Shown one piece after another: positions 55,055 through 57,816 of a DNA stretch of 64,000 nucleotides; the stretch's first letter is position 1, and every line of letters begins with the position of its first letter. The notes below the pieces were generated by a model. That model searched no databases. It saw only the letters and a program-made list of their open reading frames with translations, and was not told the origin of the DNA. The DNA lies in the NCBI GenBank assembly GCA_015067435.1, contig SVMM01000013.1, positions 1-64,000 on the forward strand, read 5' to 3'. This stretch comes from Oscillospiraceae bacterium. Lineage in GTDB: Bacteria; Bacillota; Clostridia; Oscillospirales; Oscillospiraceae. A program made the translations under genes and the position numbers.

Positions 55055-56368
55055 TTAATGTGTCCTGTGCTTTTCCGCAAGCGTATGCAGGCGATCCAGG
55101 ACCGCCGCGCCCGCGCCGCGCGTGACCTCCTGCCCGGGCAGGAATTCGCTCTTCTCATTGCCGCGGAAAACACCGAGCACGGAGCAGAAGCCGACGTCCG
55201 CGATCGCCCAGCCGGCGATCTGCGCGCGGTCGGCATAGGGTGCCGAAGCGCTACCCACGGGAACGGTGACGCCGTACAGGCGGGCAAAGCGCGCCGCGAC
55301 GACGGCGAACTCCTGCCGTGTGATGGGTTTGTCCGGCGCAAAATACTTCGCCGAGACGCCGTTCATCACGCCGGCGGCGTGCGCCCACGCAATATAGGGC
55401 GCGGCGGCGCTGTCCCTCGGCACGTCGGCAAAGGGGTCCGCGGCGGGGATTACCACGGCCGCGCCGTACAGCCGTCCGAGCGCAACGGCAGCCTCCCCGC
55501 GCGTCATGGAGAAGTTGGGCAGGAACTCGCCCGCTTCGTTGCACGACATCAATCCCGCGTCAAGCGCGTAGCGGATAGACGAAAATGCCCAGTGGGTATA
55601 CAGCTTGCTCTCGTCGTACCATTCGCTGCGCGGGCAGCGGTTGACGCCGGTGTTCCGCACGCGGGTGTAGACCTTCCCCGCCTGCGCTTCGACGCCGCGC
55701 CGCCAGAGCAGCTCGTCGACCGTCACCATCTCGAAGTCCTTGCCCTCCAGCGCGGTGAGCAGATTGTCCAGTCCGCGGGCGGTGCTTTTGTGCGTTTCGT
55801 GCATCAGCACGATGTCCCCGTCCTGCACCACCGAGACGGTGTAGCTCGTCAGGCGCGCCGAATCCTGATACTTCCAGTCCTCCGTGTCCACGCTCCACAT
55901 GACGAGCGGCACGCCCGCGGCATTCGCCACGCGGCTGCTGTAATCGCCGTAGGGCGGGCGGAGATAGAACCCGGTCGCGCCGGTCCCTTTGAGGCCCGTG
56001 ACCTCCGTCAGCGCCGCGGCGACGGAGCTGATTTGGCGCCTGACCTCGGCGTCGGATTTCTTGCTCAGCTGGGGATGATCCCATGTGTGGTTCGCGACCT
56101 GGTGTCCCTCCGCCGCCATGCGCCGCACCTGATCGGCAAATTCGCTGATCTTATAGCCGTTTAAGAAGAAGGTCGCCTTTGCGCCGTGCGCTTCCAGTGT
56201 ATCGAGGATCTGATCGGAATACGTCCCCGGTCCGTCATCGAAGGTCAGCGCGACCAGCTTCTGATTCGGACGCTCATAGGCAGACGCCGCCAGCGCGATC
56301 GGCGCAAGGCCGAGACACAGGACGGCAGCCAGCACAAAGGACGCCGCGCGATATGCAAACGCTTTCAC
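55055..56368 (-). CDS. Exported polysaccharide deacetylase (NodB) with SLH domains
   Basis: 437 residues. Signal peptide 1-27. The NodB domain (about 35-230) has TFDDGPGTYSDQ (catalytic and metal-binding Asp pair), ANHTWDHPQL (the two metal-binding His) and FYLRPPYGDYSS. Three C-terminal SLH repeats follow (HWAFSSIRYALDAGLMSCNEAGEFLPNFSMTRGEAAVALGRLY, and two more to the end). It likely removes acetyl groups from peptidoglycan or a wall polysaccharide at the cell surface. The GTG at 56368 has GGGAGG 8 bp upstream. Confidence 0.92.
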   Translation of the reverse strand: MKAFAYRAASFVLAAVLCLGLAPIALAASAYERPNQKLVALTFDDGPGTYSDQILDTLEAHGAKATFFLNGYKISEFADQVRRMAAEGHQVANHTWDHPQLSKKSDAEVRRQISSVAAALTEVTGLKGTGATGFYLRPPYGDYSSRVANAAGVPLVMWSVDTEDWKYQDSARLTSYTVSVVQDGDIVLMHETHKSTARGLDNLLTALEGKDFEMVTVDELLWRRGVEAQAGKVYTRVRNTGVNRCPRSEWYDESKLYTHWAFSSIRYALDAGLMSCNEAGEFLPNFSMTRGEAAVALGRLYGAAVVIPAADPFADVPRDSAAAPYIAWAHAAGVMNGVSAKYFAPDKPITRQEFAVVAARFARLYGVTVPVGSASAPYADRAQIAGWAIADVGFCSVLGVFRGNEKSEFLPGQEVTRGAGAAVLDRLHTLAEKHRTH

Positions 56369-56433
56369 GGCATTTTCCTCCCGTTCCCGCTGCCACGCTG
56401 TTGTTTTCCGTGCACAGCAGATTTTATATTGCA

Positions 56434-57486
56434 TCATATTGGGAGAATTGTCAACTGTTTCCCGCTGTTTTTTGCATTTTCACGCACGCAAAGCGGATTC
56501 TCGTAGAGTTTCCCGCCGTTTGCGAAAAAGTTATAGGAGCGGCAGCCGCCGGCGCACACCGCGCCGTGAACGCACGTGCCGCATTTTCCCGTGAGCTTTT
56601 CCGGCGTAAATTTCCGGTTGTAGGCAAACGCGTCCGGGTCCTCCCAGATATCGCGCAGGCTGCGCTGCCGGAGGTTGCCCTCAATGAAGCGCGCGTCGTA
56701 CATCGACTCGCAGCCGCGGACATTACCCACGCTGTCGATGCCGACGGCAATCAGCCCCGCGCCGCACCCGTCGAACGAATAGCTCGGCGTGCCGCGCAGC
56801 ATCCCCTCCTCCGGCGTGTAATAGCCGATGTTATCCGCGATACCGAGCGCAAAGGGCGCCGCGGGGGCGTCTTTCGCCACAAAATCGATAACCGCCGCCG
56901 CGTCGAAGCACACGTCGACGCCGTTCTGCGCGGCGCCGCCCATGGGCGAGCATGCCTGCAGCTGCCATGCAAAAATCGGATAGCTTCGCAGCGTATCATA
57001 CAGCTCGCCCAGCAGCGGCGCGTTGTCCGCGCGCAGCGTGCTGATGACGGACGCCGGTATCCCCGCCGCCGTCAGCGCGCCAAGGGCCTCCAGACACAGG
57101 CGGTAGCTGCCCGCGCGGCGATACGCGTCGTGCACGCGCTCCGGGCCGTCCAGCGACACCGCTACGGACTCGACGCGAAGCGCCGCCAGCTCGCTCAGCA
57201 GCTCCGGCGTCATGCGGTATCCGTTGGTGATGATGCACACGCGGATGTCCCGCCGCGTGAGCGCGGAGACGATCTCACGCCAGTCGGGGCGCAAAAACAC
57301 CTCGCCGCCGATCAGCGATACGCGGCGGCAGCCCAGCTCCGCGAGCTGGGCTGCCACGTCAAGACATTCGGCGGTGCTCAGTTCGTCCGGGCGCGCATTC
57401 CCGCCGCCGGAGCCGCAGTAGGCGCAGCGGAACGGACAGGCAAGCGTGATCTCCCAGACGCACTGGCGCAGTTTGTAGGCACTCAT
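56434..57486 (-). CDS. Radical SAM/SPASM enzyme, candidate peptide maturase
   Basis: 350 residues. The radical SAM cluster ligands are C17, C21 and C24 (TLACPFRCAYC), followed by LIGGEVFLRPDW and ITNGYRMTPEL. The C-terminal SPASM domain has the complete seven-cysteine pattern: C-x12-G-x4-C, then C-x2-C-x5-C-x3-C (KCGTCVHGAVCAGGC), then C in NPLCVREN. SPASM enzymes with both auxiliary clusters commonly modify ribosomal peptides. The start codon overlaps the stop of the small YAGP/zinc-ribbon gene (ATGA), which makes that protein the obvious candidate partner. Sulfatase-maturase-like or other roles remain possible. Confidence 0.9.
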   Translation of the reverse strand: MSAYKLRQCVWEITLACPFRCAYCGSGGGNARPDELSTAECLDVAAQLAELGCRRVSLIGGEVFLRPDWREIVSALTRRDIRVCIITNGYRMTPELLSELAALRVESVAVSLDGPERVHDAYRRAGSYRLCLEALGALTAAGIPASVISTLRADNAPLLGELYDTLRSYPIFAWQLQACSPMGGAAQNGVDVCFDAAAVIDFVAKDAPAAPFALGIADNIGYYTPEEGMLRGTPSYSFDGCGAGLIAVGIDSVGNVRGCESMYDARFIEGNLRQRSLRDIWEDPDAFAYNRKFTPEKLTGKCGTCVHGAVCAGGCRSYNFFANGGKLYENPLCVRENAKNSGKQLTILPI

Positions 57487-57782
57487 TCCCAGGAAAGCTC
57501 CGAGCCGCAGTTGGGGCAGAATTTGCTTTTGGCATGGAGAGGGCTCCCGCACTGCGGGCAGAAACCGACCCGCTCCTGCTCTTCCTGCGGTTCAGGGGGC
57601 TGCTGTGCCTGCTGCTGCGACTGCTGAAAAAACATCATGCCGTTCAGAGCACCGTTCGGCGGCATGTTCGGACCCGCGTAGGTCATCATCATCTGCGCCG
57701 GCCCGGCGTAGACAAAACCCATCGGCGGATCAGGCTCCTTCTTGTTGAGAGGATAGTTGTCCCTGTTCTCCGGTTTTGGCAT
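57483..57782 (-). CDS. Small YAGP-repeat protein with C-terminal zinc ribbon, candidate radical SAM substrate
   Basis: 99 residues, no signal peptide. The N-terminal half has two copies of YAGP at residues 25-28 and 35-38 (GFVYAGPAQMMMTYAGPNMPPNG). Then come a Gln/Pro/Glu-rich linker (53-70) and a zinc ribbon at the C terminus (C75, C78, C89, C92: CPQCG...CPNCG). GGAGGTGA lies 9 bp before the ATG. It is cotranslated with the radical SAM/SPASM gene. I do not recognise a named family; a precursor or scaffold for modification is an inference from the gene pair. Confidence 0.75.
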   Translation of the reverse strand: MPKPENRDNYPLNKKEPDPPMGFVYAGPAQMMMTYAGPNMPPNGALNGMMFFQQSQQQAQQPPEPQEEQERVGFCPQCGSPLHAKSKFCPNCGSELSWE

Positions 57783-57816
57783 ATTGCCGCGTCACCTCCG
57801 TTCGATTTCTGTTCAC

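Follow-up and report, generated by a model that had tools for sequence, protein, structure and literature searches.

What does a radical SAM enzyme with a SPASM domain act on when the gene it overlaps encodes a small protein that combines YAGP motifs with a zinc ribbon? The question is posed by two genes, P0001 and P0002, in a window of 64,000 nucleotides (the whole stretch of DNA analyzed here) from an Oscillospiraceae genome. The original prediction, made from this window, took the pair for a candidate new RiPP-like system with no visible leader peptidase or exporter, with the YAGP segment as the modified core and the zinc ribbon or the linker as the recognition element, and asked whether a YAGP-encoding gene is a constant neighbor of the enzyme.

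A gene pair with a complete SPASM enzyme

The anatomy first described for the small protein (99 residues, two YAGP motifs at a spacing of ten residues, and a CxxC ribbon at the C-terminus) was confirmed by its coordinates and by Pfam (Table 1). The motifs lie at residues 25-28 and 35-38, and the ribbon, which reads CPQC...CPNC and holds all four cysteines of P0001, exceeds the cut-off of PF13240 (Zn_Ribbon_1, 25 bits). The predicted ATGA overlap of the P0001 stop codon with the P0002 start is also present. The Pfam matches of P0001 were zinc ribbons only, DUF1843 not being among them, and the 25 families listed out of 33 at E 0.1 include no Nif11 or nitrile-hydratase-like leader. A scan for promoters and terminators returned nothing exceeding chance.

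Table 1. Features of the YAGP locus, by position in the window
Feature	Position	Strand	Basis
YAGP-repeat/zinc-ribbon protein gene P0001, 99 aa, proposed substrate	57483..57782	-	ORF translation, Pfam, homologues
GGAGG, a good ribosome-binding site for the YAGP gene	57795..57799	-	sequence before ATG; functional role inferred
NYPLNK segment, counterpart of KKYPWxK near the N-terminus in many homologues	57741..57758	-	sequence comparison
First core site VYAGP, residues 24-28	57699..57713	-	translation, repeat alignment
Second core site TYAGP, residues 34-38	57669..57683	-	translation, repeat alignment
Zinc ribbon (residues 74-96), which may serve in recognition or as a scaffold	57495..57563	-	PF13240, 30.6 bits
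Radical SAM/SPASM enzyme gene P0002, 350 aa, overlaps YAGP stop by ATGA	56434..57486	-	ORF, Pfam, alignment, tree
CxxxCxxC radical SAM motif, residues 17-24	57415..57438	-	translation, homologue alignment
SPASM domain, seven invariant cysteines, residues 241-333	56488..56766	-	Pfam, homologue alignment

P0002 is, as first proposed, a radical SAM protein with a complete seven-cysteine SPASM domain, matching PF04055 at 96.3 bits and the SPASM family PF13186 at 28.9 bits. All ten expected cluster cysteines are present and invariant in 13 aligned homologues: C17, C21, and C24 in the radical SAM motif and C241, C259, C302, C305, C311, C315, and C333 in the SPASM domain. A GTG start that would give an ORF of 372 residues is less likely than the 350-residue start. 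The AlphaFold model of P0002 (mean pLDDT 72.2, the SPASM half mostly below 55, best match SkfB) confirms a SPASM-type barrel only and does not tell the reaction.

Downstream of the enzyme, with an overlapping ORF start, lies a gene for a polysaccharide deacetylase with three SLH stretches (55055-56437), the likelier start of which is a later GTG ahead of a signal-peptide-like segment. We considered this gene as a part of the module and excluded it because no such neighbor recurs.

The enzyme and the repeat occur together

Homologues were gathered by enzyme sequence alone, without use of the YAGP gene. A search of genome contigs gave 12 close enzymes (59 to 71% identical in the best segment) and, as 13th match, an archaeal relative (L048) at 35%. 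The enzyme is rare: it was found in 6 of 394 genomes in a sample of the order, the window's own included, and beyond its own genome in 5 of 391 genomes in a sample of the class, where 13 genomes gave a match (own included), five further ones at 488 to 608 bits and seven at about 300 bits. The pair as a whole is distributed over some gut and rumen Clostridia.

Among the 23 enzymes of the YAGP type, a YAGP-repeat gene adjoins the enzyme in 20, lying upstream in 19 and downstream in one (L075), and L073 and L074 have such a gene on both sides. In the 19 upstream cases, 20 to 120 nt separate the stop codon from the codon of a conserved (V/A)(W/F)E motif in the enzyme. The expectation that the neighbor always carries YAGP thus held for these 20 and failed for the other three. 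Two of them (L042 and L046) have no YAGP gene nearby and encode a YAGP/double-zinc-ribbon protein elsewhere in their genomes (G902 and G903), and the third (L071, in G091) has an adjacent ORF with only the degenerate motifs VYAPP and IYASP. The YAGP genes in trans were identified by reading the proteins, with profile E values that were weak for L042 (0.08 and 0.12 in G902) and modest for G903 (9.6e-4 and 0.03).

The reverse search, with a profile of the repeat only, was run on the same 394 order genomes and gave seven matches at E 0.01. Five of these genomes carry the enzyme, so that five of the six enzyme-bearing genomes have repeats. In G271, YAGP occurs without the enzyme, on a contig that ends right after the YAGP gene. 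The match in G449, a single site at E 0.009 in an unlikely, perhaps random ORF, was dropped, which leaves a co-occurrence table of 5/1/1/387 (Fisher p = 4.7e-10). A search with the whole YAGP protein was set aside: it picked up zinc ribbons in 57 of 150 family genomes, and the loci fetched from it (L002 to L035) have no YAGP in any ORF of at least 25 codons. Judged from these sequence comparisons, the pairing of enzyme and repeat is real and general.

The module is an accessory element here, since in 17 other genomes of the genus no stretch of DNA matching the operon exceeds 66 nt and five sister loci have a different gene after the phosphorylase. The best match to P0002 in plasmid records was 37% identical (among the 30 matches listed of 329, 12 of which were fetched), and viral contigs scanned with the enzyme alignment held no relative.

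Little else accompanies the pair. No further gene family recurs across the YAGP loci, other shared clusters being limited to close relatives, and a comparison at the level of shared gene clusters, rather than of individual peptidase families, revealed no recurring leader peptidase. The predicted lack of an exporter is borne out within the fetched neighborhoods (which extend at most 6 kb to either side and less where contigs are short), where none of the 23 loci has a C39-type exporter like that of a clostridial relative (L079). An ABC protein upstream in L038 was rejected as an importer-type cassette with 28% identity over the ATPase only.

The repeat is conserved as a peptide

We aligned 87 Y[AG][GAV]P repeats from 23 neighbor proteins, leaving out copies with under 8 residues ahead of the motif or under 13 behind it. 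Their consensus is VYAGP: Tyr and Pro occur in all 87, Val precedes Tyr in 82, the position after Tyr (+1) is Ala in 79 and Gly in 8, and Gly follows at +2 in 82. The residues that follow are mostly Glu or Asp and then an aromatic or Met pair; Met, Phe, or Ile is frequent at position -4, and the remaining linker varies freely. Proteins carry between 1 and 10 copies, with two in P0001, and the repeats lie in disordered linkers that are acidic or rich in Pro and Gln. The 72 exact VYAGP copies use 4 Val, 2 Tyr, 4 Ala, 4 Gly, and 3 Pro codons, and this synonymous variation indicates that selection acts on the peptide.

Outside the repeats, a Tyr-Pro occurs at least once in each of the 23 proteins, typically as KKYPWxK near the N-terminus. 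The CxxC...CxxC pattern is present in 20 of 23, and the three proteins without it (L073, L074, and L075) belong to one genus; at two of these loci, a second, ribbon-bearing YAGP protein is encoded on the enzyme's opposite flank. NCBIfam has no model that describes YAGP proteins, the 15 members scanned giving only zinc-finger-type and other weak matches. One protein in G903 (L110:1027-1827), which adjoins a DUF6935 gene, joins YAGP sites and a double zinc ribbon to some 150 N-terminal residues that have no Pfam match.

A SPASM enzyme that adjoins a small protein with cysteines could belong to an ordinary thioether RiPP system (a sactipeptide or ranthipeptide) with the ribbon cysteines as donors, and both the presence of Cys at position -2 in 16 of the 87 repeats and the inclusion of SkfB among the best solved relatives of the enzyme fit this idea. 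We consider it very improbable: 71 of the repeats have no Cys at that position, P0001 has no cysteine beyond those of its ribbon, and the NCBIfam sactipeptide models score P0002 far under their cut-offs (StsB, 118 against 625 bits). Membership in the thioether RiPPs was accordingly rejected for want of conserved core Cys donors. Chance, with a short motif and nothing else to join the two genes, is scarcely credible as an explanation of the neighborhood, being refuted by the association itself, that is, by 87 repeats in 23 proteins, their synonymous codons, and the co-occurrence of repeat and enzyme.

The enzyme belongs to the nif11-3/GDL maturase clade

In a tree of 43 enzymes, which did not include PlpX itself, the 23 YAGP enzymes all group together (support 100/100) inside a clade of 37 (support 100/99). 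The rest of this clade comprises a Nostoc TIGR04103 maturase (L133), three GDL maturases, a Tropicibacter enzyme, seven clostridial enzymes, one from an Agathobacter plasmid, and one archaeal enzyme. Outside it fall two MftC enzymes, one TIGR04053 member, one NirJ, and two unnamed enzymes, a small set on long branches that drew a program warning. The clade shares fourteen positions, among them Gly25, Trp174-Gln175, Gln177, Met182, Asn184, and Gly221, that no more than one of the six outsiders has.

Profile scores point the same way. The best NCBIfam match of P0002 is TIGR04103 at 229.3 bits, which misses the cut-off of 725 widely, followed by TIGR03913 at 211.8 bits against 591.75; of eight further clade members scanned, six have TIGR04103 as their best match and two TIGR03913. 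Among the matches listed, the Nostoc enzyme is the nearest named relative of P0002, at about 36% identity. The view that the window enzyme belongs to the nif11-3/GDL maturase clade is supported by these comparisons, and the enzyme is not the orphan that an isolated RiPP-like system would suggest.

Most relatives lie beside proteins with xYG or xYA motifs

Most neighbors of these relatives share a theme. The Nostoc locus has a Nif11 precursor (51 bits) that ends in IALYGLPPELF, followed by the enzyme and a 71-residue ORF. At GDL loci, six of eight DUF1843 precursors contain xYG or xYA (LYAAG, MYAAS, PYGAG, LYGGA, PYGVA, and PYGPA), and the other two have xYM. All seven clostridial relatives have a neighbor with at least three xYG/xYA copies. 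In five of these loci (L077, L078, L079, L080, and L082), the neighbors are GG-leader peptides with 3 to 5 copies, including LYGI, KYGV, KYAIP, and LYGIP, and KYAIP and LYGIP occur together in one peptide. A C39-type ABC exporter is found in four of the seven fetched loci, and with the GG-leader peptides it makes secretion of the product probable. The enzymes themselves carry a TPR tail in all three cases scanned. To our knowledge, these multi-copy systems (L077 to L083) have no published name.

Evidence elsewhere in the clade is thinner. An unannotated, hence weaker, 35-residue ORF at the Agathobacter locus ends in VMYGTGVRM, and three consecutive ORFs upstream of the Thermoplasmata enzyme (L048), also unannotated and hence weaker, have xYG near their C-termini; L136 has no convincing partner. 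A scan for multiple xYG/xYA copies was passed by none of six loci outside the clade, which were shorter (4 to 5 kb against 6.6 to 12 kb), and by none of seven other clade loci, which have single or no copies.

Two clostridial loci encode, beside splicease-like enzymes, 315-residue proteins (L081:3293-4240 and L083:4345-5292) in which KYG(V/I/Y)P recurs roughly ten times or more, as KYGVP and KYGYPCG among others. The L081 protein matches chagasin (I42), a protease-inhibitor domain, at 46.3 bits against a cut-off of 27.2, and no such domain was detected in L083. Both proteins are candidates for a poly-ketoamide protein inhibitor. Our literature search found nothing on chagasin together with radical SAM enzymes, nor on TIGR04103.

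GDL-type enzymes also contain CxxC...CxxC pairs, at the C-terminus in L134, L135, and L141 and at the N-terminus in L136. These pairs are ribbon-like in two or three of the GDL enzymes and in L136, and two of the three GDL enzyme tails give weak zf-ChsH2 matches. A theme of ribbon-ribbon recognition may be suggested from these sequences, and we put it no higher because the Pfam matches of the tails fall below the cut-off.

The precursors also bear on whether YAGP is modified at all. The repeats could instead be docking motifs, with the zinc-ribbon protein serving as an adaptor or activator for an enzyme that modifies something else, and their place in disordered, acidic or Pro/Gln-rich linkers, the lack of an exporter and of a recurring leader peptidase, and the existence of YAGP proteins in trans or fused to an unrelated N-terminal domain (L110) would all agree with such a role. 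We think it improbable, as the xY(G/A) motif of the relatives sits in evident precursors with GG leaders or Nif11 domains. VYAGP is well supported, on comparative grounds, as the target site of the enzyme, and the original notion of a modified core survives in this form, with the site adjacent at 20 of 23 loci, in trans at two, and adjacent in degenerate form at one.

Likeness to spliceases and the proposed reaction

PlpX is the characterized enzyme of the splicease type and excises tyramine from X-Tyr-Gly, giving an alpha-keto-beta-amino acid. We take its SPASM family, IPR026482, to be equal to NCBIfam TIGR04103. The family assignment of PlpX is given in one paper (PMC11002830), and a second gives MYG and LYG as the natural sites of PlpX/PlpY, 135.0757 Da as the mass loss, and PIRP(L/G)YGLPI as the sequence of splicing tags, which failed at most of the positions tried within one test protein (PMC10533398). 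The YAGP system resembles the spliceotides in that the window enzyme shares a clade with the Nostoc TIGR04103 member and the sites are Tyr-centered, present in several copies per precursor (as a family), and followed by Pro at +3, as in the tags and the Nostoc LYGLP. It differs in its sites, which in the window are VYAG and TYAG rather than XYG and have Gly at +1 in just 8 of the 87 family repeats, while the clade relatives mix xYA and xYG. It also differs in having a protein-sized substrate with a zinc ribbon in place of a Nif11 or NHLP leader, and in loci that lack other RiPP genes and a recognized partner in the PlpY position; among the gene families of YAGP neighborhoods, a comparison not specific to RREs, no third gene recurs. 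Strict membership in the spliceotides (PlpX type) was rejected on the missed TIGR04103 cut-off, the motif, and the lack of a Nif11 or nitrile-hydratase-like leader among the Pfam families listed.

The other branches of the clade are likewise close in some respects only. GDL/DUF1843 systems (TIGR03913) fall in the same clade and have mostly xYG/xYA precursors and a CxxC...CxxC tail, which sits on the enzyme and not on the substrate, and their DUF1843 precursors have one site each; the missed TIGR03913 cut-off and the lack of DUF1843 in P0001 exclude the window pair from them. The clostridial systems share the clade, the repeats, and, in L081 and L083, a protein scaffold, and they differ in the TPR tail of the enzyme, the GG-leader peptides, and the C39-type exporter.

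Because the enzyme lies in the nif11-3/GDL clade and related precursors carry xYG or xYA, we read the YAGP system as a splicease-type variant. The YAGP sites share Tyr, a small +1 residue, and Pro at +3 with LYGLP and KYGVP, which makes tyramine excision the likeliest reaction. A moderately probable reading, and the one we favor, is thus a zinc-ribbon, splicease-like branch that would modify the VYAGP sites of a cytoplasmic protein, most likely by excising tyramine at V-Y-A(G)P.

SPASM enzymes are also known for Tyr crosslinking, for oxidative decarboxylation and Val-Tyr coupling, and for epimerization. That YAGP is modified by one of these other Tyr-directed reactions (a C-C or ether crosslink, mycofactocin-like decarboxylation or Val-Tyr coupling, or epimerization) is unlikely, if a serious contender. 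Mycofactocin chemistry acts on a C-terminal Tyr, whereas the YAGP sites are internal. The two systems have in common a SPASM enzyme and a Val-Tyr substrate (for mycofactocin, see PMC8326336), and the YAGP sites have Ala rather than Gly at +1. TIGR03962, the mycofactocin model, is the third NCBIfam match of P0002, at 137.5 bits against a cut-off of 265; this shortfall and the position of both MftC rows outside the 37-member clade led us to reject membership, and the precursor is different as well. Against other Tyr chemistry in general, xY(G/A) followed by Pro at +3 is a feature that the nearest relatives retain and the PlpX tags share.

In the splicease-type reading, the two genes would form a post-translational module in which the radical SAM/SPASM enzyme modifies the YAGP-repeat protein, with one event per VYAGP copy. 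Each event would probably be a backbone edit that cuts out part of the Tyr, by analogy with spliceases. The ribbon, perhaps with the KKYP motif, may replace the leader/RRE pair in holding the substrate to the enzyme. As no C39-type exporter was found in the fetched neighborhoods, a ketoamide protein would act inside the cell, where we speculate that the product, bearing several electrophilic alpha-ketoamides, could inhibit a protease or capture a nucleophile. Protease inhibition, also speculative, fits the chagasin-bearing cousin and published splicease activity, the reaction being described as widespread and its products as protease inhibitors (PMC11002830, PMC10373908, PMC11117315).

Implications

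The YAGP pair may be considered, provisionally and from sequence comparison, a novel zinc-ribbon branch of splicease-like systems. Our literature search, which covered sources apart from the main splicease survey, found no description of a YAGP, radical SAM, and zinc-ribbon precursor, and such loci may already be on record in that survey. The larger proposal is tentative, and we hold it to be possible rather than probable: a cytoplasmic protein-splicing system in which a zinc-ribbon scaffold, a VYAGP array, and a stand-alone enzyme would yield backbone alpha-ketoamides without leader, RRE, or exporter. If this is true, splicease specificity would have widened from XYG to VYA(G)P with a zinc ribbon replacing leader recognition, poly-ketoamide proteins would be active intracellularly, one conceivable role being that of multivalent protease inhibitors, and L081, with its xYG scaffold and chagasin domain, would encode a cousin that is either secreted or retained in the cell. 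A minimal pair of one enzyme and one tagged protein would then perform multi-site backbone editing, offer a splicing tool that works with a tag of five residues and no leader, and show a radical SAM enzyme finding its substrates through a zinc ribbon. Nif11-3, GDL, the clostridial xYG peptides, and YAGP, separately named families, would be tied to one motif and one testable reaction, and electrophilic ketoamide proteins would be linked to the physiology of Clostridia in the rumen and gut.
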